Under the pieces are notes generated by a model that was not told the DNA's origin, did not search any database, and saw only the letters and a list, made by a program, of their open reading frames with translations. Shown piece by piece: positions 15,045 to 43,591 of a stretch of 43,591 bases of DNA. The position numbers and the translations under genes were made by a program. The number at the start of each line of letters is the position of its first letter. The first letter of the stretch is position 1. The DNA comes from a virus. Location of the stretch: positions 1 through 43,591 of IMG/VR virus record IMGVR_UViG_3300042891_000306. The stretch is one strand, 5' to 3'.

Positions 15045-15119
15045 TGGAGCCCTGTGAGGGAATCGAACCCCCATCCTGAGTTTCGAAGACTCTAATTCTA
15101 TCCGTTGAACTAACAGGGC
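15045..15119 (-). tRNA. tRNA-Arg (UCG)
   Basis: Cloverleaf with acceptor GCCCTGT/ACAGGGC, anticodon loop CTTCGAA, T-loop TTCGATT and encoded CCA. Reads CGA. Last gene of the tRNA cluster. Confidence 0.9.
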
Positions 15120-15120
15120 A

Positions 15121-15197
15121 TGGTAGAGATGGTAGGATTTGAACCTACGGTAGCTTGCGTATGAAGCAAGTGCATTAGGCCACTATGCTACATCTCT
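15121..15197 (-). tRNA. tRNA-Met (CAU), elongator type
   Basis: Acceptor AGAGATG/CATCTCT fully paired, anticodon stem CTTGC/GCAAG with loop TTCATAC, encoded CCA. The paired first base rules out an initiator. It lacks the close match to tRNA-Ile2 seen at 20847, so Met is preferred. Confidence 0.85.
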
Positions 15198-15202
15198 ATA
15201 AT

Positions 15203-15279
15203 TGGAGCAACGGGTCGGATTTGAACCGACGTACAAAGGATTTGCAGTCCTTGCCATTAGGCCACTCTGGTACCGTTGC
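15203..15279 (-). tRNA. tRNA-Cys (GCA)
   Basis: Acceptor GCAACGG/CCGTTGC, anticodon stem AAGGA/TCCTT with loop CTGCAAA, encoded CCA. Confidence 0.9.
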
Positions 15280-15288
15280 ATTGTTGTT

Positions 15289-15362
15289 TGGCTCCGGTGG
15301 AGGGAATCGAACCCCCACTAACGGTTTTGGAGACCGCCGCACTGCCATTATACTACACCGGA
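15289..15362 (-). tRNA. tRNA-Trp (CCA), copy 1
   Basis: Acceptor TCCGGTG/CACCGGA, loop CTCCAAA, discriminator G, encoded CCA. All 74 bases are identical to the copy at 19212-19285. Confidence 0.9.
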
Positions 15363-15364
15363 AT

Positions 15365-15439
15365 TGGCAGGGGTATCAAGACTCGAACTTGAAACGACAC
15401 AGTCAAAGTGTGTTGTGTTGCCAATTACACCATACCCCA
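15365..15439 (-). tRNA. tRNA-Gln (UUG)
   Basis: Starts TGGGGTA with a weak 1-72 pair, as usual for tRNA-Gln. Anticodon stem ACACA/TGTGT, loop CTTTGAC, encoded CCA. Its 5' flank AGTAAGATCAAT resembles that of tRNA-Asn. Confidence 0.88.
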
Positions 15440-15571
15440 ATTGATCTTACTATAGAATAAGTTAGGAGTTATCCTCCCGGAAGACCGAAGCCTTGAGCGT
15501 CCTCAAGTTTTAGCTGTAAATCCAGCTTACCATGTTGCGCATTATTAAGAGGCGTGGCCGGTTCTGTTGTT
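15440..15571 (-). other. Structured spacer between tRNA-Ser(GCU) and tRNA-Gln
   Basis: A 132-base gap without a convincing gene. The minus strand has a perfect hairpin CTTGAG-GACG-CTCAAG and a GGAG/CTCC hairpin. One frame reads LKLEDAQGFGLPGG then a stop, but has no in-frame ATG. It could be an RNA-processing spacer or a decayed gene. Confidence 0.35.
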
Positions 15572-15663
15572 TGGCCGAGGGTATCCGATTCGAACGGATG
15601 GTACACATTTCTGGTACGACAGTTTAGCAAACTGCTGGTTTCGGCCAACTCACCCAACCCTCG
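15572..15663 (-). tRNA. tRNA-Ser (GCU)
   Basis: Class II tRNA with long variable arm, acceptor CGAGGGT/ACCCTCG, anticodon stem GCAGT/ACTGT with loop TTGCTAA, discriminator G and encoded CCA. Driven by the promoter inside the upstream endonuclease gene. Confidence 0.9.
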
Positions 15664-15665
15664 AT

Positions 15666-16289
15666 TTAAAACTTTCTACCCTTATTATAACCTCTAATTA
15701 GGTAGTTGTCAAGCTCTTCTTTGCGTATTTTAAGATTTTCTACGCCATTTGTAATCCACATTGTGCCAAACTGCGAGTTCCTTTCTCCTACACCAGTACC
15801 TTTCTTAATAGTACTCAATAAATTTTTAGTATCTATAGAATGTGTTTTACCAACGAATGTTCCGGGTCGTCCTGTTAATATAGTTGACATATATTGCTTA
15901 GTAGCTTCGGAATGTTTTTTTCCTTTAAATCCACCACCTAGGGCAGCAGCTGCCTTTCCGGCCTTACTACATTGGTTAGCTTTATTGTTAATACCTGTGT
16001 TATTAATATAATCAAACCCACCAAAGCCGCCACGCTTAAGATTATACGTATTACCTTCTGTTAAGAAATCATCATTTACTAGTTCAGCTTCTTTAGCATA
16101 CATATCTTTAGCATTATCAAACACAAACATTATTTCTTTGGTAAAATTATCTAATCCGTATTTTAAATATGCACGATTTAAGTATTTTCCAGAACCCATA
16201 TAATCGTCATTAACATTTTTAGTTTTATGACTGCCTATATAAATTTTACCATCTATATTATTTGTAATTTTGTAAATTAAATAAAACAT
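15666..16289 (-). CDS. GIY-YIG homing endonuclease with NUMOD3-type repeats
   Basis: 207 residues. The GIY-YIG core reads YLIYKITN (3-10) and KIYIGSHKT (15-23), with the usual YGLDNF and a catalytic-region Glu in MYAKEAELVN. The linker carries two NUMOD3-like DNA-binding repeats (KGKKHSEATKQYMS and GKTHSIDTKNLLS) and an NSQFGTMWITNG block common in such enzymes. It stands free inside the tRNA cluster, not in a visible intron, and would promote its own spread by cutting phages lacking it. Its RBS region is folded in a hairpin overlapping a late promoter. Confidence 0.9.
   Translation of the reverse strand: MFYLIYKITNNIDGKIYIGSHKTKNVNDDYMGSGKYLNRAYLKYGLDNFTKEIMFVFDNAKDMYAKEAELVNDDFLTEGNTYNLKRGGFGGFDYINNTGINNKANQCSKAGKAAAALGGGFKGKKHSEATKQYMSTILTGRPGTFVGKTHSIDTKNLLSTIKKGTGVGERNSQFGTMWITNGVENLKIRKEELDNYLIRGYNKGRKF
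15684..15712 (-). promoter_or_regulatory. Consensus sigma70 promoter inside the endonuclease 3' end
   Basis: Minus strand TTGACA (15707-15712), 17 bases, TATAAT (15684-15689), entirely within the last codons of the GIY-YIG gene, 21 bases before tRNA-Ser(GCU). It would drive the downstream tRNAs. Confidence 0.75.
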
Positions 16290-16327
16290 AAGTGCCTCTA
16301 TATCTGTTGTTCTTATGTTTATTTATC
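16279..16327 (-). promoter_or_regulatory. Late promoter overlapping a start-codon-masking hairpin
   Basis: Minus strand GATAAATA (16320-16327) resembles the T4 late element. The following AAATAAACATAAG (16312-16324) pairs with CTTATGTTTTATTT (16279-16292; one-base bulge), which contains the endonuclease ATG; the ribosome site AGAGG lies in the loop. RNA starting at the late promoter would lack most of the 5' arm. Confidence 0.65.
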
Positions 16328-16329
16328 AT

Positions 16330-16352
16330 AGTTCGAGACTTACACTCGAACT
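16330..16352 (-). other. Stem-loop after tRNA-Ser(UGA)
   Basis: GTTCGAG and CTCGAAC arms around a seven-base loop, a few bases past the 3' end of tRNA-Ser(UGA). No T-tract follows, so tRNA 3' processing or pausing is more likely than termination. Confidence 0.45.
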
Positions 16353-16358
16353 CAAGGG

Positions 16359-16443
16359 CGGAAGCTAATCGCATCGAACGATTTACCATTCCTGGTAACT
16401 ACAGTTTTCAAGACTGTGTGAGGAGCCGACCTCAGTAACTTCC
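16359..16443 (-). tRNA. tRNA-Ser (UGA)
   Basis: Class II tRNA: acceptor GGAAGTT/AGCTTCC, anticodon stem ACAGT/ACTGT with loop CTTGAAA, variable-arm stem TTACC/GGTAA, T-arm AATCG/CGATT, discriminator G. The next bases are CCC, so it alone in the cluster does not encode CCA. Confidence 0.85.
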
Positions 16444-16448
16444 GAGTT

Positions 16449-16498
16449 GACAAGTCACCGCATTAGTCTTCAGCTTGCGCTGTTATCTTATCCTTGTC
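16449..16498 (-). other. Stem-loop 5' of tRNA-Ser(UGA)
   Basis: Outer arms GACAAG/CTTGTC close a region that holds CAGC-GCAA-GCTG, a GNRA tetraloop hairpin. The element ends five bases before the tRNA. It contains the motif GATAACAG shared with the spacers at 18145 and 19020. Confidence 0.45.
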
Positions 16499-16579
16499 TG
16501 ACAGCTTTTTAATACTAGGGTTTTGTTAAAATACTACGGGTCGCTGTTTGCCCCTAAACCCATACCGGTTAAAGATACT

Positions 16580-16655
16580 TGGTAGCCCATCCTGGTTTCG
16601 ATCCAGGTACCTACACCTTATCAAGATGCCGCTCTCCCAATTGAGCTAATGGGCT
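16580..16655 (-). tRNA. tRNA-Ile (GAU)
   Basis: Acceptor AGCCCAT/ATGGGCT, anticodon stem GCATC/GGTGT with loop TTGATAA, encoded CCA. Confidence 0.9.
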
Positions 16656-16662
16656 ATAAAAA

Positions 16663-16738
16663 TGGCTCCGGTCGTTGGAATCGAACCAACCTTCATGGAT
16701 TAACAGTCCACCGCCTACACCGTGTTTGCTTGACCGGA
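16663..16738 (-). tRNA. tRNA-Asn (GUU)
   Basis: Acceptor TCCGGTC/GACCGGA, anticodon stem GTGGA/TCCAT with loop CTGTTAA, T-loop TTCGATT, discriminator G, encoded CCA. The D-arm is unusual, with only two clear pairs. Confidence 0.85.
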
Positions 16739-16786
16739 ATTGATCTTTACTACTAAATTGTACAATAGCAGATTGAAGTAACTGCT

Positions 16787-17569
16787 CTATTTTGGGCCGC
16801 CGTGACCTCGCTCAGTGACACTAGGTGGACGAAGTGGCCATATCCCATGTTCTTCAAGGGTATATTGGCTACCCGGATTATTCATTAACTGATTATCTAA
16901 AAGTCGACGAGTATAAACATAGCTTAGTAATAACCAATGGTTATTGGTATTAATACTCCAATGTGCCTGATTATATTCCATTTGTATTCGGCCAAACCAA
17001 TATCTATTACCTAGTACATCATTGGTCAGACTATTACTGCGATAATAAAAATCTGTTAAGTGAGGTAATCTTATATTACCATAAAATATGTGAGATATTT
17101 TATATTCAAAATCTTCACAATGTTGCATGCACTCTTCTTGCTGCTGTTTTTGTTCAAATATAATATCTAGATCCGGACGTATTTCAATTACTTGATCATA
17201 AACAAATTTATTATCTAGTTCATACCTACGTTTAGATATATTAGCTACTTTGGCTAGATATGCTTGATAATAAAATGTTACCATTCGATTACTAAATTTA
17301 TCTAAATCCATAATTTTACAATCAATAAGATTACGCCCGTAAAATTTATCAACAATTTCCTGTTCAGTAACAGGCCGTTTACTATCTATGTGTATAGTTT
17401 TTCCTTCTATCGGAATCCAAATATCCTGAGTACTGTTCCATGTTGCAAAATAATAGTCTACCGTTTCACCCCACATCTCAGCATATTTAAATATATTTTC
17501 ATAAGTATGTGACCACGTTCTTAAATCGCCACATATTAATATAGCCAGACGTTTTTCTTTATATGACAT
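16787..17569 (-). CDS. Putative glycosyltransferase-like protein within the tRNA cluster
   Basis: A 260-residue protein. LAILICGDLRTW (8-19) and VYDQVIEIRPDLDI (about 123-136) are typical of polysaccharide-related glycosyltransferase-like proteins of phages and large DNA viruses, in which RPD followed by D may contribute to metal or sugar binding. It follows the 142-residue gene with an 11-base overlap and precedes tRNA-Asn, an isolated sugar-type pair between tRNAs. Function inferred from pattern only. Confidence 0.5.
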   Translation of the reverse strand: MSYKEKRLAILICGDLRTWSHTYENIFKYAEMWGETVDYYFATWNSTQDIWIPIEGKTIHIDSKRPVTEQEIVDKFYGRNLIDCKIMDLDKFSNRMVTFYYQAYLAKVANISKRRYELDNKFVYDQVIEIRPDLDIIFEQKQQQEECMQHCEDFEYKISHIFYGNIRLPHLTDFYYRSNSLTNDVLGNRYWFGRIQMEYNQAHWSINTNNHWLLLSYVYTRRLLDNQLMNNPGSQYTLEEHGIWPLRPPSVTERGHGGPK

Positions 17570-17987
17570 GAAAATTTATACCCAATCTATTGGCTAGAAA
17601 AAATAATTTATTCTTAGGAGTTAAATCAGCCTTACTGTAAATATCTTCCATAGTTACTTTGTATTGACTACCCAACATAGAAAATATTTCGGGACTACAC
17701 GCAAACGATGACGATTGGTCGTCTTTAAATACTATTAATTTTTGATCTACTAATAATAAACGATCATCTGTTAATTGTTCAATTTGAAATGACCGCATAG
17801 ATGAAATTTCCACAACCAAATCAATCTGTTGATCATTAAGAAATATTGCTTCGTCTATTTGTATAGCGATATCTGCCCGTTTTAATTCAGCGTTAGATTG
17901 ACTACTAGTAAACACAATATCTGTGTTTAGTCTACGTTTAAGTTCTGGAACAAATTCATCATTGATTGATGCTATGGCAATTTTCAT
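17559..17987 (-). CDS. Hypothetical protein paired with the glycosyltransferase-like gene
   Basis: 142 residues starting MKIAIASINDEFVPELKRRL. Alternating beta and alpha pattern suggests a Rossmann-like or receiver-like fold, without catalytic motifs. AATAAATA (17993-18000) lies five bases before the ATG and no ribosome site is visible. Overlap with the downstream gene indicates co-translation. Confidence 0.6.
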   Translation of the reverse strand: MKIAIASINDEFVPELKRRLNTDIVFTSSQSNAELKRADIAIQIDEAIFLNDQQIDLVVEISSMRSFQIEQLTDDRLLLVDQKLIVFKDDQSSSFACSPEIFSMLGSQYKVTMEDIYSKADLTPKNKLFFLANRLGINFHVI

Positions 17988-18009
17988 GTTAATATTTATT
18001 ATATGTATA

Positions 18010-18085
18010 TGGTGGAGGTGACAAGGATCGAACTTGCGACATCATGCTTGCAAAGCATGCGCTCTCCCAACTGAGCTACACCCCC
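18010..18085 (-). tRNA. tRNA-Ala (UGC)
   Basis: Acceptor GGGGGTG/CACCTCC, anticodon stem CATGC/GCATG with loop TTTGCAA, encoded CCA. Confidence 0.92.
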
Positions 18086-18301
18086 GTGTAAGTGTTCTGC
18101 TACTAGCACCACCTAGCCCAGAACTGAGTAGTTACCCTGTCCAGCTGTTATCTTTTGGATATAACAACAAATAACCCACGATACTTTCAAGGCTCCCGGC
18201 AATGGGACTTGTGGCATGGTCTAGACCATCGTGTGTGCCCTGGCGTTATGGTATTGCCAATTACCCACTTTCGATAAAGCGCAAAGTGTAAAGCTAGTGT
18301 T
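18086..18301 (-). other. 216-base structured spacer between tRNA-Gly and tRNA-Ala
   Basis: No convincing gene. It holds GTTCTG/CAGAAC (18094-18124) with an inner CTAG/CTAG stem ending eight bases before tRNA-Ala, the GATAACAG motif, a perfect palindrome ATGGTCTAGACCAT (18216-18229), and CACTTT/AAAGTG arms (18270-18292). It may be a small structured RNA or tRNA-processing spacer. Confidence 0.4.
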
Positions 18302-18375
18302 TGGAGCGGGATATCAGAATCGAACTGATGACAGAAGTTTGGAAAACTCCAGTTTTGCCATTAAACTAATCCCGC
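18302..18375 (-). tRNA. tRNA-Gly (UCC)
   Basis: Acceptor GCGGGAT/ATCCCGC, anticodon stem GGAGT/ACTTC with loop TTTCCAA, encoded CCA. Confidence 0.92.
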
Positions 18376-18379
18376 ATGT

Positions 18380-18464
18380 TGGTGCGAATGGTCGGACTTG
18401 AACCGACATGCCCTGCGGCGAGGGATTTTAAGTCCCTTGTGTATACCAATTTCACCACACTCGC
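18380..18464 (-). tRNA. tRNA-Leu (UAA)
   Basis: Class II tRNA, acceptor GCGAGTG/CATTCGC, anticodon stem AGGGA/TCCCT with loop CTTAAAA, long variable arm, discriminator A and encoded CCA. Confidence 0.92.
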
Positions 18465-18471
18465 ATATTAC

Positions 18472-18556
18472 TGGTGCCTTAGGAGAGACTCGAACTCTCA
18501 CGCTGTTAAGCACCGGCTTCTAAGACCGGGGTGTCTACCAATTCCACCACCAAGGC
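18472..18556 (-). tRNA. tRNA-Leu (UAG)
   Basis: Class II tRNA, acceptor GCCTTGG/CTAAGGC, anticodon stem CCGGT/GCCGG with loop CTTAGAA, encoded CCA. Confidence 0.92.
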
Positions 18557-18563
18557 ATACTAC

Positions 18564-18638
18564 TGGTACAGCTACGGGGAATCGAACCCCGCTTGCCGGG
18601 ATGAAAACCCGATGTCCTAACCGATAGACGATAGCTGC
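18564..18638 (-). tRNA. tRNA-Glu (UUC)
   Basis: Acceptor GCAGCTA/TAGCTGT with G-U at the end, anticodon loop TTTTCAT on stem TCGGG/CCCGG, encoded CCA. Confidence 0.9.
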
Positions 18639-18643
18639 ATTAT

Positions 18644-18728
18644 TGGTGCCGGCTGAGTGAATCGAACACTCTCTATCTTACGAAGCCTGATTACAAGTCA
18701 GGTGCAATCCCACTCTGCGCAAGCCGGC
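18644..18728 (-). tRNA. tRNA with UGU anticodon (Thr by decoding) and long variable arm
   Basis: Acceptor GCCGGCT/AGCCGGC, anticodon stem CCTGA/TCAGG with loop CTTGTAA, giving UGU and predicted decoding of ACA. Between the anticodon and T-stems (GAGTG/CACTC) lie about 14 bases, CTTCGTAAGATAGA, with a CTT/AAG mini-stem, and the D-stem has three pairs. Such a class II shape is normal for Leu, Ser and Tyr, not Thr. Encoded CCA. Confidence 0.8.
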
Positions 18729-18739
18729 GGTTAAAACTT

Positions 18740-18901
18740 TTACTTACGTGCTTCTAATATTCTAATACGACTACGGATCTTTGCTTGATCCTTTTTCTTA
18801 CTAGTCTTTTCTAACATGGTATTTAATTGTGTTAGGTTCAATGGACCTAAACGTGGTTTACCTGTGCGTGTCTGCATTGGATTTGCTTTTTTCACTGCCA
18901 T
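18740..18901 (-). CDS. Small very basic protein inside the tRNA cluster, 53 residues
   Basis: Starts MAVKKANPMQTRTGKPRLGP and ends in a Lys/Arg-rich helix (KKKDQAKIRSRIRILEARK). AGGAGAAG precedes the ATG with good spacing, which strongly supports translation. It sits between tRNA-fMet and the UGU tRNA in the same direction. The charge suggests RNA, DNA or acidic-protein binding. No named family is recognised. Confidence 0.8.
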   Translation of the reverse strand: MAVKKANPMQTRTGKPRLGPLNLTQLNTMLEKTSKKKDQAKIRSRIRILEARK

Positions 18902-18917
18902 GTTACTTCTCCTGTAT

Positions 18918-18992
18918 TGGTTGCGGAGGACGGATTCGAACCGCCGATCTACAGGTTATGAGCCTGCCGGGTTGCCACTTCCCCACCCCGCG
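18918..18992 (-). tRNA. Initiator tRNA-fMet (CAU)
   Basis: Begins CGCGGGG and ends CTCCGCA before ACCA, giving the C1xA72 mismatch that marks bacterial initiator tRNAs. Anticodon loop CTCATAA. The anticodon stem GCAGG/CCTGT keeps only two of the three usual G-C pairs. Confidence 0.88.
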
Positions 18993-18999
18993 ATAAAAG

Positions 19000-19037
19000 T
19001 TCTGCGGCCAAATACAGGCCTGTTATCATGTGCAGAA
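19000..19037 (-). other. Stem-loop 5' of tRNA-fMet
   Basis: TTCTGC/GCAGAA outer arms with an inner GGCC/GGCC stem, ending seven bases before the tRNA. Similar in placement to the elements before tRNA-Ser(UGA), tRNA-Ala, tRNA-Asp and tRNA-Pro. Confidence 0.45.
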
Positions 19038-19075
19038 TCATGACTGATTTCAACGGTGGAGTTGCACCACAGGCA

Positions 19076-19144
19076 TCAGCTACCCTTGGACGGTTTGCCG
19101 TACTCTCCTAACCTCGAATACATATTGTTACGGCTTTCTTCCAT
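19076..19144 (-). CDS. Possible 22-residue peptide gene
   Basis: ATG at 19144, just downstream of the promoter at 19169-19197, encodes MEESRNNMYSRLGEYGKPSK plus two residues. The ribosome site is weak (TAAG). It is the only frame in the 218-base gap between tRNA-Trp copy 2 and tRNA-fMet that looks peptide-like. It shares YSRL with the 20-residue peptide at 19674. Low confidence. Confidence 0.3.
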   Translation of the reverse strand: MEESRNNMYSRLGEYGKPSKGS

Positions 19145-19168
19145 TTACTTATTTGTTACTATCTATAT

Positions 19169-19197
19169 AGTGTAGCATTTTTGATATTTGCTGTCAA
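19169..19197 (-). promoter_or_regulatory. Sigma70-type promoter within the tRNA cluster
   Basis: Minus strand TTGACA (19192-19197), 17 bases, TACACT (19169-19174). It would restart transcription toward tRNA-fMet and the following tRNAs. Confidence 0.7.
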
Positions 19198-19211
19198 CCA
19201 CTATTTGAAAC

Positions 19212-19285
19212 TGGCTCCGGTGGAGGGAATCGAACCCCCACTAACGGTTTTGGAGACCGCCGCACTGCCATTATACTACACCGGA
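19212..19285 (-). tRNA. tRNA-Trp (CCA), copy 2
   Basis: Identical over 74 bases to the copy at 15289-15362. Encoded CCA. Flanks differ, so the repeat unit is the tRNA itself. Confidence 0.9.
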
Positions 19286-19291
19286 ATAACT

Positions 19292-19366
19292 TGGCGACTC
19301 GACGGAGAATCGAACTCCGATGATGGGATAGACAATCCCACGTAATAACCATTATACGATCGAGCC
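19292..19366 (-). tRNA. tRNA-Asp (GUC)
   Basis: Acceptor GGCTCGA/TCGAGTC, anticodon stem TGGGA/TCCCA with loop TTGTCTA, discriminator G, encoded CCA. Confidence 0.9.
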
Positions 19367-19372
19367 AAAGAA

Positions 19373-19411
19373 CTTCCGAGCCGACTGCAAGCAGTATTCT
19401 ACGGACGGAAG
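19373..19411 (-). other. Stem-loop 5' of tRNA-Asp
   Basis: CTTCCG/CGGAAG outer arms and an inner palindromic ACTGC-AA-GCAGT hairpin, ending six bases before the tRNA 5' end. Confidence 0.45.
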
Positions 19412-19424
19412 CCATATTAAAAGT

Positions 19425-19499
19425 TGGGTTGACTAACCGGGTTCGAACCGGTGATGAAGGAATCACAATCCTTAGTGTTGCCGCTACACTATAGTCAAC
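19425..19499 (-). tRNA. tRNA-His (GUG)
   Basis: Has the extra G-1 opposite discriminator C73 that identifies tRNA-His. Acceptor TTGACTA/TAGTCAA, anticodon loop TTGTGAT, encoded CCA. Confidence 0.92.
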
Positions 19500-19501
19500 A
19501 T

Positions 19502-19577
19502 TGGTAGGACGGGTGGGCTACGATCCCACCACCTCGACGTTAAAAGCATCTTGCTCTTCCAAATGAGCTACCGTCCC
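19502..19577 (-). tRNA. tRNA-Lys (UUU)
   Basis: Acceptor GGGACGG/CCGTCCT, anticodon loop CTTTTAA, encoded CCA. Confidence 0.9.
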
Positions 19578-19582
19578 AAACT

Positions 19583-19666
19583 TGGTGGGTGATCTAGGAG
19601 TCGAACCTAGTTTCCGGAGGACACAGATTTACAGTCTGCTGCAGTCGCCAATGCTGCTCATCACCC
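19583..19666 (-). tRNA. tRNA-Tyr (GUA)
   Basis: Class II tRNA, acceptor GGGTGAT/ATCACCC, anticodon stem CAGA/TCTG with loop CTGTAAA, long variable arm and encoded CCA. It shows that the class II UGU tRNA at 18644 is not the only Tyr candidate. Confidence 0.92.
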
Positions 19667-19673
19667 ATATTCT

Positions 19674-19736
19674 TTATTTTAATCTACTGTAAACAGGAAA
19701 GCCAAAGCCCCCTTGTTCAACATCATGTTCGTTCAT
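19674..19736 (-). CDS. Likely 20-residue peptide gene between tRNAs
   Basis: The frame MNEHDVEQGGFGFPVYSRLK is preceded by AAAGGAGG seven bases before the ATG, one of the best ribosome sites in the window. It lies between tRNA-Pro and tRNA-Tyr in the same direction. Function unknown; it could be a true micropeptide or a translated leader affecting tRNA processing. Confidence 0.5.
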   Translation of the reverse strand: MNEHDVEQGGFGFPVYSRLK

Positions 19737-19798
19737 GATTAATCCTCCTTTAGCATTTTATCCGCCTGCAATTAAGTATAAATCAGCGGTTATAACAT

Positions 19799-19876
19799 TG
19801 GTCTCTCGTGTAGGATTCGAACCTACGTTCTTCTTGCTCCCAAAGCAAGTGCCATACCAGACTAGGCGAACGAGAG
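19799..19876 (-). tRNA. tRNA-Pro (UGG)
   Basis: Acceptor CTCTCGT/ACGAGAG, anticodon stem CTTGC/GCAAG with loop TTTGGGA, encoded CCA. Confidence 0.9.
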
Positions 19877-19880
19877 TTAA

Positions 19881-19982
19881 ACGCACTCTTACGAATGCGT
19901 ATAATAAAGCACACTAATTGCTCTCTTAAGACATAATCCACATTGCGTGGGACCTAGTTGCCGATTAATGCGCTTTATTATA
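19881..19982 (-). ncRNA. Possible structured RNA upstream of tRNA-Pro
   Basis: A perfect 11-base inverted repeat TATAATAAAGC (19900-19910) / GCTTTATTATA (19972-19982) encloses an imperfect stem and a CCAC/GTGG hairpin; a second hairpin ACGCA/TGCGT (19881-19900) ends four bases before tRNA-Pro. A 60-codon frame across it has no ribosome site and is judged spurious. A small RNA or processing element is an inference. Confidence 0.4.
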
Positions 19983-20086
19983 ACAAGTATTTTCTGTTCA
20001 CAAAAGAACATGCCATCCACTTGTCCGCCCATTTGCCCATTTAACGTGTGGACTGCGATCTCGTTTCGCATAACACGTACTGCTTA

Positions 20087-20215
20087 CTACTTAGAAAGTT
20101 TTTTTAAAAGATTAGCATTTTCTGTTAATAGTTTTGTTACTCTTTCTAATTTTTGTTCTAATACCACTATCCTTTGTTCTGGAGTCGGCTTTTGAACAAT
20201 TTGTTTTTTATCCAT
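20087..20215 (-). CDS. Small coiled-coil protein, 42 residues
   Basis: Starts MDKKQIVQKPTPEQRIVVLE and continues as a heptad-like helix (LERVTKLLTENANLLKKL), so probably an oligomeric coiled coil. AAGGAG precedes the ATG by eight bases. It follows the terminator-like hairpin at 20234-20251 and precedes the structured region before tRNA-Pro. Function unknown. Confidence 0.75.
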   Translation of the reverse strand: MDKKQIVQKPTPEQRIVVLEQKLERVTKLLTENANLLKKLSK

Positions 20216-20229
20216 CTTCGGCTCCTTAA

Positions 20230-20251
20230 AAGCAAAAACCCCAGGGTTTTT
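20230..20251 (-). terminator. Terminator-like hairpin after the 43-residue gene
   Basis: Minus strand AAAAACC-CTGG-GGTTTTT followed by GCTTTT. An overlapping AACCC/GGGTT pairing just upstream could compete, so read-through to the 42-residue gene may be partial. Confidence 0.6.
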
Positions 20252-20297
20252 AATCCTAGGGTTCTTAATTAAAATTCACTTATATTATATATAAACG

Positions 20298-20429
20298 TTA
20301 ACTAAGATCCCCATAGATACTATTCGGTGTGCGATCATTGCCTAATGTCTCAATCGCTGACCAATAAGACATCGTGGCAAGTGCTGACACTTGTTTCGAT
20401 ATTGTAAATTGATGTCTTTGGTTAAACAT
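20298..20429 (-). CDS. Small hypothetical early protein, 43 residues
   Basis: Begins MFNQRHQFTISKQVSALATM and ends SAIETLGNDRTPNSIYGDLS. An AAAGGA lies 13 bases before the ATG, longer than ideal. A near-consensus promoter (20473-20501) is 40 bases upstream and a terminator follows, making a compact one-gene early unit. No family recognised. Confidence 0.65.
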   Translation of the reverse strand: MFNQRHQFTISKQVSALATMSYWSAIETLGNDRTPNSIYGDLS

Positions 20430-20472
20430 TTTGCTTTCGCATTCCTTTAATTAATTTGTTACTATAACAACT

Positions 20473-20501
20473 AGTATACAGTCTATTTGTTAGCCTGTCA
20501 A
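20473..20501 (-). promoter_or_regulatory. Sigma70-type promoter for the 43-residue gene
   Basis: Minus strand TTGACA (20496-20501), 17 bases, TATACT (20473-20478). A GATAAATA (20516-20523) lies just upstream. Confidence 0.75.
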
Positions 20502-20544
20502 CCTCTTTGTTAATTTATTTATCTTTTATTTTTACGATACTAGT

Positions 20545-20742
20545 TTAATCGTCAATTACGTCAATACCAGCAGCACCAAGTTCAGTTACTGCTTCAACTG
20601 CGGCTTTTTTCTTTGGTGCACCCCAGAAGTTAGTTGTTGCTGTTTCACTTTGTACACCACGAGCTATTTGTTGTATCTGACCACCGTTGGCTAAAAATTC
20701 TGCCATTACTTGTTCATAATCGTATTCATTTATATCTGACAT
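20545..20742 (-). CDS. Small hypothetical protein between tRNAs, 65 residues
   Basis: Starts MSDINEYDYEQVMAEFLANG, acidic N-terminus then a Lys patch (GAPKKKAAVEAV). AAGGATA precedes the ATG. It lies directly downstream of tRNA-Arg(UCU) in the rpoZ-like transcript. Function unknown. Confidence 0.7.
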   Translation of the reverse strand: MSDINEYDYEQVMAEFLANGGQIQQIARGVQSETATTNFWGAPKKKAAVEAVTELGAAGIDVIDD

Positions 20743-20765
20743 CTTATATCCTTATATTATATTAC

Positions 20766-20840
20766 TGGTCCGGCGTGAGGGAATCGAACCCCCAACTAGG
20801 GAGTAGAAATCCCCTGTTATATCCATTTAACTAACACCGG
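20766..20840 (-). tRNA. tRNA-Arg (UCU)
   Basis: Acceptor CCGGTGT/ACGCCGG, anticodon stem GGGGA/TCCCT with loop TTTCTAC, encoded CCA. Reads AGA. Confidence 0.9.
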
Positions 20841-20846
20841 AGTGTT

Positions 20847-20923
20847 TGGTGGGCCTTACTGGACTTGAACCAGTGACATTCCGATTATGAGTCGGACGCT
20901 CTAACCAACTGAGCTAAAGGCCC
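20847..20923 (-). tRNA. tRNA-Ile2 (CAU, lysidine type) likely
   Basis: Acceptor GGGCCTT/AAGGCCC, anticodon loop CTCATAA, encoded CCA. The body (TTAGCTCAGTTGGTTAGAGC and GGTTCAAGTCCAG) closely resembles the minor tRNA-Ile that reads AUA after lysidine modification, rather than elongator Met. Confidence 0.8.
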
Positions 20924-41261: not shown

Positions 41262-41639
41262 TTGGCAAAGGTTTGCTATAAATACTGTATGGAGTTCCGC
41301 CCTTTATGCAAAAGTTGTACTAGAAACCCCGCTGCAATTAACTATAAGCGCGATGGTGTAACACATTTCCGAACAAGGTGCAGCGGCTGTATCAGAAAGA
41401 ATAGAAAATTAGCGCCACAGAAACCAACGTGGATGCTTGTTGGTTATAAGAAAAAGCCACATTGTGAAAAATGTGGCTTTAAGGCAAAGTATAAAGAACA
41501 ACTTAGCGTTTACTATGTTGACGGTAACTTAAAAAATAATGCACTGTTTAATTTAAGAACTATCTGTGCAAACTGTCAAATTACTATCGTTAAAGAAGGA
41601 CTAGGCTGGACTCAAGGCGATCTGACTCCGGATTTCTGA
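41262..41639 (+). CDS. Cys-rich HNH-like zinc protein, TTG start
   Basis: 125 residues and the only plus-strand gene. The start is TTG, with AAGGAG three bases upstream; the next ATG would drop the first Cys. Four CxxC-type pairs (CKSC, CSGC, CEKCGF, CANC) and YYVDGNLKNNALFNLRTIC, which matches the D-G-N...N-L HNH core, suggest a zinc-stabilised HNH endonuclease or a related nucleic-acid-binding protein. Its 3' end overlaps the convergent dNMP kinase gene by 39 bases. Confidence 0.75.
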   Translation: MAKVCYKYCMEFRPLCKSCTRNPAAINYKRDGVTHFRTRCSGCIRKNRKLAPQKPTWMLVGYKKKPHCEKCGFKAKYKEQLSVYYVDGNLKNNALFNLRTICANCQITIVKEGLGWTQGDLTPDF

Positions 41640-42266
41640 TATAATTAATTCTTCAGTACTAGCATATAATTCATCTATGCTACCATCGTTAGTCACAGTA
41701 ACATCAAACTTAGTACCGATCCAAGCATACTCACTTGGGTGAATGCCTAAATTGTCTAGTTCGCTTTTACCTAGTGCCCATCCAATCTTCTTCATTCCGG
41801 CATTTACGGTCTTGGCTGCATTGTACCACTCAGGCTCTGCACCACGTTTAACACGCACTGTTTTACCACCCAAGTTCTTAATCATTTTAATTTCGTTTGG
41901 AAAACGGCAATCTGAGATTACAATGTCTTCATTTGTTTTACGGAGTTTGTTTTCGAGACTTGCTATCCATATATCAGTATGGAAACCCTGACGACATACT
42001 TCTGTGCCCCAGTTTTGTAATACCCAACGTGGAGTTAAGTTTGGCATCTTTAAGCGTTTGGCCCACCAAGGATCTACTCGTTCGCGCCAAGCTCTACCTT
42101 CTGCACTGCGCCCTTCAAGTAGTTCACGATCCCAACCAAATACTGTTGCGACTGCATCTTTAAGCGTGCCAGCAAAGCTCTCTCGTTTAAAGCCGTGCTC
42201 TGCTACTAGGTAATCTGCGATTGTGTCTTTGCCTGAACCGATGAAGCCTGTTACTGATATAATCAT
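41601..42266 (-). CDS. 1: Deoxynucleoside monophosphate kinase gp1
   Basis: 221 residues. P-loop GFIGSGKDT (7-15), DRELLEGRSAEGRAWRERVD, LQNWGTEVCRQGF and VISDCRFPNE are characteristic of T4 gp1, which phosphorylates dGMP, dTMP and hydroxymethyl-dCMP for phage DNA synthesis. An early-type promoter lies upstream, unlike the flanking late genes. AAAGGAATAGT gives the ribosome site. Confidence 0.93.
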   Translation of the reverse strand: MIISVTGFIGSGKDTIADYLVAEHGFKRESFAGTLKDAVATVFGWDRELLEGRSAEGRAWRERVDPWWAKRLKMPNLTPRWVLQNWGTEVCRQGFHTDIWIASLENKLRKTNEDIVISDCRFPNEIKMIKNLGGKTVRVKRGAEPEWYNAAKTVNAGMKKIGWALGKSELDNLGIHPSEYAWIGTKFDVTVTNDGSIDELYASTEELIISEIRSQIALSPA

Positions 42267-42290
42267 ACTATTCCTTTCTATATATAGTAT

Positions 42291-42319
42291 ATTATACTTT
42301 TATTACAGACAGGTGTCAA
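42291..42319 (-). promoter_or_regulatory. Consensus sigma70 promoter for gp1
   Basis: Minus strand TTGACA (42314-42319), 17 bases, TATAAT (42291-42296), immediately after the gp13 stop. Confidence 0.85.
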
Positions 42320-42327
42320 TTATTGAT

Positions 42328-43212
42328 TTAACCAGTAATCCAAGTTAATGGCATACCGCCATCAGCATAGCTTGAAATTTCAGCATCTAGTTTATCCAAC
42401 AATGCCTGTCCTTCTGCTTTGAGTGCGGCACCATTTAAACTACCGCCGCCTTGTGGACCTGCAATAGTAGCAAATTTTTCACGTGCTTGACCTATACTCA
42501 TCATTACTAGTGCATAAGCATAGTCTTGTATCCACGGAAATACCTGTGGGTCATTTAACAACATAGCATCTGGTTTAACGTTGTATACCCATAGTGCAAC
42601 ACTTTCTACCTCAGTAGAATTTGCTCCTTGCCAAGGTTGTTTACGTAAGACTGTTAATTTTTTAGTTGCTTTGTTAAACGTAAAGTTCATGTAACCGCCA
42701 AACATAGTCATTGCTAGCTCTTGATATTGCGTGAACAATTCGTAGTTAGCTAGTCCGCCAACACGACCTGCTACTAACATATAAGTGTTTAAGTAACCAC
42801 TTGCAAATGGTTCAAACTGACTGGCTGTTGTGCCTGTTACACTACCGATACCACGACGGAATATTTGTCTAACGTCCATAATTTCACGTGGTAAGATGTA
42901 TTCTTGTGTTTCTGGTTGCAGATCTAAAAACGCATAACTTTCTTCTACTGCGTTTGAACTGCGTTGACGATAACGCACAAAGGCCTGTTTAATGCCCATG
43001 TCGTAGTGTTCTTTGTCTGCTTCAACATCAACTATCTGATCACCTAAACGTAAACGAATGTAATCAATGATATCGTTGCGTTGTTGATTTTCTGGTATTA
43101 ACAGAGTTGCATCAAAAGCAATATGACCAGCACCTGTACCAGTAACTGGATTGTATAAACTGTCTGTGGTTAGACTAAGATTTGCGGTTAAATTACCTGT
43201 TGCTGTTGCCAT
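42328..43212 (-). CDS. 13: Neck protein gp13
   Basis: 294 residues. IIDYIRLRLGDQIVDVEADK with YDMGIKQAFVRYRQR matches the T4 gp13 N-terminal VILRRLGAP-VE and IQRALELYGEY region, and WIQDYAYALVMMSIGQAREKF plus GAALKAEGQALLDKL matches its C-terminal helices. With gp14 it forms the neck that closes the filled head. An AGGA ribosome site lies in the 3' arm of a hairpin. Confidence 0.85.
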   Translation of the reverse strand: MATATGNLTANLSLTTDSLYNPVTGTGAGHIAFDATLLIPENQQRNDIIDYIRLRLGDQIVDVEADKEHYDMGIKQAFVRYRQRSSNAVEESYAFLDLQPETQEYILPREIMDVRQIFRRGIGSVTGTTASQFEPFASGYLNTYMLVAGRVGGLANYELFTQYQELAMTMFGGYMNFTFNKATKKLTVLRKQPWQGANSTEVESVALWVYNVKPDAMLLNDPQVFPWIQDYAYALVMMSIGQAREKFATIAGPQGGGSLNGAALKAEGQALLDKLDAEISSYADGGMPLTWITG

Positions 43213-43219
43213 GTGAAAT

Positions 43220-43253
43220 CGTCCTGTTTTGTATATTTAGCACTTACAGGACG
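43220..43253 (-). promoter_or_regulatory. Ribosome-site-masking hairpin with a late promoter in its loop
   Basis: Perfect arms CGTCCTGT (5' arm, 43246-43253) and ACAGGACG (3' arm, 43220-43227) on the minus strand. The 3' arm contains the AGGA ribosome site of gp13. GCTAAATA (43234-43241), a late-type motif, is in the 18-base loop, so late RNA would start past the 5' arm. Confidence 0.65.
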
Positions 43254-43265
43254 ACTTTGTTCAGA

Positions 43266-43591
43266 TTATTGTACTTTGAGTAAGATAGTATCGAGGTTGA
43301 TACGTCCATTTAGTTTAATATCAGTTGCTTTGATATTGTCTAAGAACTTACGTAATTCAATCTTACCTGCGGCTAAGAATTCTTTTAGCTGCACCTCTGG
43401 CTTACGTAAAGTTTTTTGTACGCTTGTAGACTCGTTAAAACCTGTTATAGCAGTACCTTTAACGCCAAGTGCACCACCCATATCTTCTGCTATGTATTTG
43501 CCTAGTTTACGTGTCTTAATATTGTAGACCCAAAGCTCGGTGGCGCCTATGATGTCAACTGGGTTGATTGATACTAGTTTATTAGTAGTAT
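43266..43591 (-). CDS. Late-gene-region protein, 5' end outside window
   Basis: The frame is open from the right edge to the stop at 43266, giving the last 108 residues. IGATELWVYNIKTRKLGKYI, then GVKGTAITGFNESTSVQKTL and FLDNIKATDIKLNGRIN are visible. The compact beta-plus-helix pattern and position before gp13 suggest a virion or neck-associated protein, but it cannot be identified as gp14. Confidence 0.65.
   Translation of the reverse strand, partial: TTNKLVSINPVDIIGATELWVYNIKTRKLGKYIAEDMGGALGVKGTAITGFNESTSVQKTLRKPEVQLKEFLAAGKIELRKFLDNIKATDIKLNGRINLDTILLKVQ

Follow-up and report, generated by a model that had tools for sequence, protein, structure and literature searches.

Several late genes of T4 and related phages are preceded by a hairpin that sequesters the ribosome site. 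This mechanism has been described for e, soc, 49, I-TevI, mobE and segB (PMC3014915, PMC2988022), and the T4 genes that use it are late genes on long polycistronic RNAs that also carry early and middle genes (PMC2988022). In T4 gene e, the late promoter motif (TATAAATA) is in the loop, the Shine-Dalgarno (SD) sequence belongs to the 3ʹ arm, and RNA made late does not include the 5ʹ arm. Our analysis suggests that gp13 of an uncultured virus is arranged in the same way. The two loci are not identical: gp13 encodes a virion neck protein whereas e encodes a lysis enzyme, gp13 has a single site with the motif GCTAAATA whereas e has two sites, and the stem sequences are unrelated. T4 soc, gene 49, I-TevI and segB, and Aeh1 mobE, resemble gp13 in being late genes whose ribosome site is sequestered on polycistronic early/middle RNA, but they are other genes, several of them mobile endonucleases, and their descriptions come from T-even and related phages and do not concern gp13. 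The mechanism is known from T4, and its occurrence at gp13 would be new. The literature searched, mostly without subscription papers, contains no account of a hairpin at gp13 in these phages, uncultured or cultured.

The window, meaning the whole stretch of DNA analysed, is a 43.6-kb virus record whose close relatives are IMG/VR contigs. The annotated phages that match it best by protein are jumbo phages, e.g. Atu_ph07, PA5oct, RaK2, CBB and 121Q, all with less than 60% identity. The first-pass annotation had called the gene downstream of the hairpin gp13; its product (294 aa; 42328..43212, minus strand) is indeed gp13-like, matching phrog_211 (head-tail adaptor Ad2) with an E value of 5.6e-29.

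On the minus strand, the order ahead of gp13 is AAGTCGTCCTGT-AAGTGCTAAATATACAAA-ACAGGACGATTT-CAC-ATG, with the ATG at 43212. The 5ʹ arm AAGTCGTCCTGT (43246..43257) pairs with the 3ʹ arm ACAGGACGATTT (43216..43227) over 12 bp, including one G-U (43257–43246 with 43227–43216), and the 18-nt loop between them (43228..43245) holds the late motif. The gp13 SD, AGGA (43222..43225), is inside the 3ʹ arm, 9 nt ahead of the ATG. In a 56-nt fold, the hairpin has a predicted energy of −16.2 kcal/mol (z −4.3), and none of 200 shuffles is equally stable. The first-pass annotation had described perfect 8-base arms that include the ribosome site, with a late-type motif in the loop. These arms are exact (CGTCCTGT at 43253–43246 and ACAGGACG at 43227–43220), the ribosome site and the motif are where it placed them, and the pairing extends beyond the 8 bases; the hairpin is thus confirmed and is stronger than was claimed. 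A search of 42800–43591 against Rfam 15 at E≤1 matched no family. In a pattern search for the stem sequence, no contig had more than one copy, and the stem is therefore not a dispersed repeat.

The motif GCTAAATA (43234..43241, minus strand) corresponds to the T4-type late promoter core, −13 to −6 in T4 numbering (PMC2988020). Among variants of the T4 late consensus, it is of the a/gC type, which has been reported for Aeh1 (PMC2988020). CTAAATA is not enriched in the window (11 copies, 13.6 expected), and the case for a late promoter therefore rests on position and conservation rather than on motif count. The predicted start (+1) is 43228, 6 nt past the motif. This prediction follows T4 numbering and is supported by the spacing of the motif from start codons in this phage group, which is bimodal: 40 sites are 4–7 nt from an ATG (22 of them at 5 nt), none is at 8–16 nt, and others follow at 17–24 nt. 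A spacing of 5 nt puts the A of the ATG at +1. With the start at its predicted position, the whole 5ʹ arm is upstream of GCTAAATA, as in T4 locks of the e/soc type, and would be present in read-through RNA only. The open reading frames with the motif 4–7 nt before the ATG nearly all lack an SD. They include those at window positions 41289 (+) and 35296, 29396, 22453, 17987 and 11242 (−), and others in the related contigs G001, G002, G005 and G009. This pattern suggests that leaderless late mRNAs form a large class in these phages. The 4–7 nt peak is absent in CBB and 121Q.

We computed the cost of opening the RNA from SD to AUG for two transcripts, one beginning 60 nt ahead of the motif and the other 6 nt past it. 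At gp13, the predicted cost is 12.3–13.2 kcal/mol on the read-through RNA and 1.1 kcal/mol on the late-start RNA. The SD is paired in the predicted fold of the read-through transcript, another feature of the e/soc-type lock. When the 60 nt ahead of the motif are shuffled, the observed cost is reached in only 2 of 1000 trials. The identical calculation for T4 e, used as a control, gives 15.2 and 1.9 kcal/mol (nearer promoter), against 12.3 and 1.1 kcal/mol for gp13; T4 soc gives 8.8 and 5.9 kcal/mol. The gp13 leader of T4 itself, which follows the late gene wac, lacks the late motif, has an opening cost of 1.6 and shows no such lock. We ranked 80 late-type sites, drawn from the window and from four contigs related to it; gp13 leaders take five of the first seven places, with that of the window sixth. 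The other two are at a GIY-YIG homing endonuclease and, in G002, at a palindromic pair of divergent late promoters.

Is the pairing conserved? From 80 IMG/VR loci we obtained 41 distinct gp13 leaders, including that of the window. The late motif [N][AC]TAAATA is enclosed by a stem in all 41 (arms of 7–20 bp, loops of 10–32 nt). The arms are anchored on the SD, and its GGA core is paired in every leader; in one (L034) the best stem does not extend to the SD, which lies just beyond it and is paired only through a 6-bp stem with another TCC. Pair types differ by clade (TCGTCCTGT/ACAGGACGA, TCATCCTGT/ACAGGATGA and TATCCCGTT/AACGGGATA). A plain MAFFT alignment put the 5ʹ arm 3 nt off between subgroups, and arms were re-anchored on TCC/GGA before counting. 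With this anchoring, which takes the best-pairing TCC and so leans towards pairing, 88.5% of cells are paired in the 24 distinct arm pairs, compared with 79.2% in shuffled controls. Two-sided compensatory changes occur at 7 of 12 pairs in the same set (3 of 500 shuffles reach 7), and there are 26 cells with two-sided change, compared with 8.2 in shuffled sets (matched by none of 500), although these shuffles overstate independence because the leaders are kin; the two-sided changes themselves occur in different lineages. Controls slid by 1–3 columns are lower on every covariation measure. On these alignments, the pairing is deeply conserved, with the compensatory change that would be expected of an e/soc-type lock.

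The neighbourhood of gp13 is also relevant. Immediately upstream, on the same strand, is the C-terminal part of a gene matching phrog_11903 (43266..43589, minus strand), whose start is off the contig. The promoter of that gene is likewise beyond the end of the window; hence, we searched its relatives, over 700 bases per locus. Among the 55 relatives with enough flank, 46 have a same-strand upstream sigma70 promoter with at most two mismatches and 44 have one with at most one mismatch, whereas an antisense control over the 55 loci gave 5 and 0, respectively. In G002, the contig of leader L003, whose gp13 is 97% identical, the consensus TTGACA-17-TATAAT is just before the start of the upstream gene. 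On the other side of gp13, a promoter scan of the window found the same consensus (TTGACA-17-TATAAT; 42291..42319, minus strand) before a deoxynucleoside monophosphate (dNMP) kinase gene (41601..42266, minus strand; PF21448, E 2.1e-12; phrog_139), which is followed by gp18, the tail sheath gene. Together, the upstream promoters in relatives and the promoter before the dNMP kinase gene make gp13 a late gene that is flanked on its own strand by two early-type genes. Promoter sequence in relatives would thus place gp13 on an early/middle-gene transcript, presumably by read-through; as judged from sequence, this is the setting in which T4 uses such a device. Elsewhere in the window, 22 tRNA genes are clustered at 15048–20923 (minus strand). 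A small HNH-endonuclease-like open reading frame (41262–41639, plus strand; weak match, E 9.1e-06), opposite and between gp18 and the dNMP kinase gene, has TATAAATA 4 nt ahead of an internal ATG.

We propose that the gp13 hairpin, very probably, acts in cis as a translational lock and so ties gp13 synthesis to late transcription. Host sigma70 polymerase would start the early RNA at the upstream gene and read through into gp13. This RNA would carry both arms and form the 12-bp stem, burying the gp13 SD, and is expected to be translated poorly at gp13. After replication begins, a late polymerase, probably of the gp55 type, would recognize GCTAAATA in the loop and start RNA about 6 nt beyond it, at the edge of the 3ʹ arm. 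The late RNA would lack the 5ʹ arm, leaving the gp13 ribosome site open. With the hairpin closed on early read-through RNA and open on late RNA, gp13 protein would be made only late in infection. The evidence consists of the anatomy of the hairpin, the predicted energies, the compensatory conservation and the sigma70-consensus promoters upstream of gp13 in relatives. We infer that the mechanism is that of T4 e, with strong comparative support, and the e/soc-type timing device is a well-supported reading of these sequences.

Hairpins at gp13 extend to cultured jumbo phages. A strong gp13 hairpin with the SD in the 3ʹ arm is predicted in RaK2, K64-1, RCIP0023, CBB, GAP32, XbC2 and BF, and likewise in pEa47, 121Q, SD-2, Munch, fENko, Hallingskeid and XaC1. 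In these leaders the late motif is within the 5ʹ arm, whereas in the window it is in the loop, and some of them, in contrast to the window, have a U-run after the 3ʹ arm. The shift in opening cost at gp13 is the largest of all scanned sites in CBB (38) and in 121Q (37). Among jumbo phages at a greater distance, PA5oct, Atu_ph07, Phosso and Vibrio 2.275 showed no clear lock at gp13. In RaK2 (L131, 1456–1468) and 121Q (L133, 1450–1468), the start annotated for gp13 (ATGAGGTGC...) falls within the hairpin; in both, the SD GAGGTG and a better start are 12–18 nt beyond it.

Could the hairpin serve chiefly as an intrinsic terminator (attenuator) of the early unit upstream, one that encloses a late promoter and buries the SD only as a by-product? 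In XaC1, BF, GAP32 and 121Q, 6–8 U directly follow the 3ʹ arm, and CBB and 121Q share a homologous gene (CBB 231629 and 121Q 35041 (+)) that is preceded by a terminator-like hairpin whose loop contains a late motif, with a U-run and the SD GGAG in the 3ʹ arm. The tail after the stem in the window, by contrast, is AUUUCAC, which is not a U-run. A scan of 42000–43591 also found no terminator-like site, but it allows loops of 3–8 nt only, and the tail is therefore the better argument. Across the 41 leaders, 5 U follow the stem core in only a few (L044, L056 and L069), whereas the SD core is paired in all. We therefore reject a terminator for the window, and consider it improbable as the chief role of the hairpin. 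The U-runs of several cultured relatives mean that termination could contribute in those phages. A more tentative possibility, which we regard as rather unlikely, is that the gp13 leader across jumbo T4-related phages locks at two levels. The hairpin of the RaK2/CBB-type branch would both terminate early RNA at the U-run and hide the ribosome site, with the late promoter built in, and the branch of the window would have kept the translational half only. If true, the neck adaptor would be a conserved timing checkpoint of head-tail joining.

The inverted repeat could also act in DNA, as an operator whose two arms are bound by a dimeric protein that regulates the late promoter lying between them. 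The dyad does flank the promoter core, and I-TevI binds an operator that overlaps its own late promoter (PMC2988022). We consider an operator very improbable nonetheless, since the loop varies from 10 to 32 nt and the arms from 7 to 20 bp, recurrent G-U combinations in the arms are paired in RNA but break the dyad in DNA, and in RaK2/CBB-type phages the promoter core is itself within one arm. Still less credible is the view that the inverted repeat is neutral or came by chance to surround a late promoter and ribosome site. The few upstream shuffles that reach a similar blocking strength mean that one such site per large genome is possible, but the pairing is conserved in 41 of 41 leaders, with compensatory change, and another form of the hairpin is found at the same gene in cultured jumbo phages. 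Chance is already contradicted by these conservation data.

A translational lock at gp13 would bring to a core virion gene a regulatory device that is classic in T4 for genes of lysis, decoration and homing endonucleases. It would do so across a large group of jumbo phages, cultured as well as uncultured, and 41 distinct leaders provide the comparative evidence. The phages with a hairpin of the window type are a group of giant freshwater phages. The lock would also account for the position of a late gene between early-type neighbours on both sides, and it makes predictions that are testable in the E. coli phage 121Q, whose equivalent site scores highest in its genome.

The first-pass annotation had compared this site to T4 lysozyme and soc and regarded it as a second use of the same device in this genome. 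The conserved pairing, the placement of the motif and the upstream sigma70 promoters in relatives support the comparison; a second use is unsupported inside the window, where only gp13 qualifies. We scanned every [N][AC]TAAATA site in the window for stems and for the opening cost of the ribosome site, and no other late-motif site upstream of an open reading frame start has a comparable stem. The opening-cost change is 12.0 kcal/mol at gp13, 5.1 kcal/mol at site 16327 and 0.8 kcal/mol at gp18 (41228). The gp18 stem (41236; ATAATACT/AGTATTAT) was rejected as a second device because its SD is outside the stem and the cost changes so little.

Further candidate sites, including homing-endonuclease genes, are found in relatives. 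In G001, late-motif hairpins block the start region of three endonuclease-like genes (L106 and L107 at G001:C1:306474 and 323498; L096 at G001:C1:116822), as is known for T4 homing endonucleases. By eye these are of GIY-YIG and HNH type, and L106 and L107 match homing-endonuclease PHROGs. At G005:C1:61199 and 61649, late motifs are in hairpins over a start codon or SD of baseplate-like genes (gp25-like and gp6-like by eye). In G002 (G002:C1:93400–93452), a near-palindromic divergent late promoter pair has, on each strand, TATAAATA and a strong hairpin over the SD.
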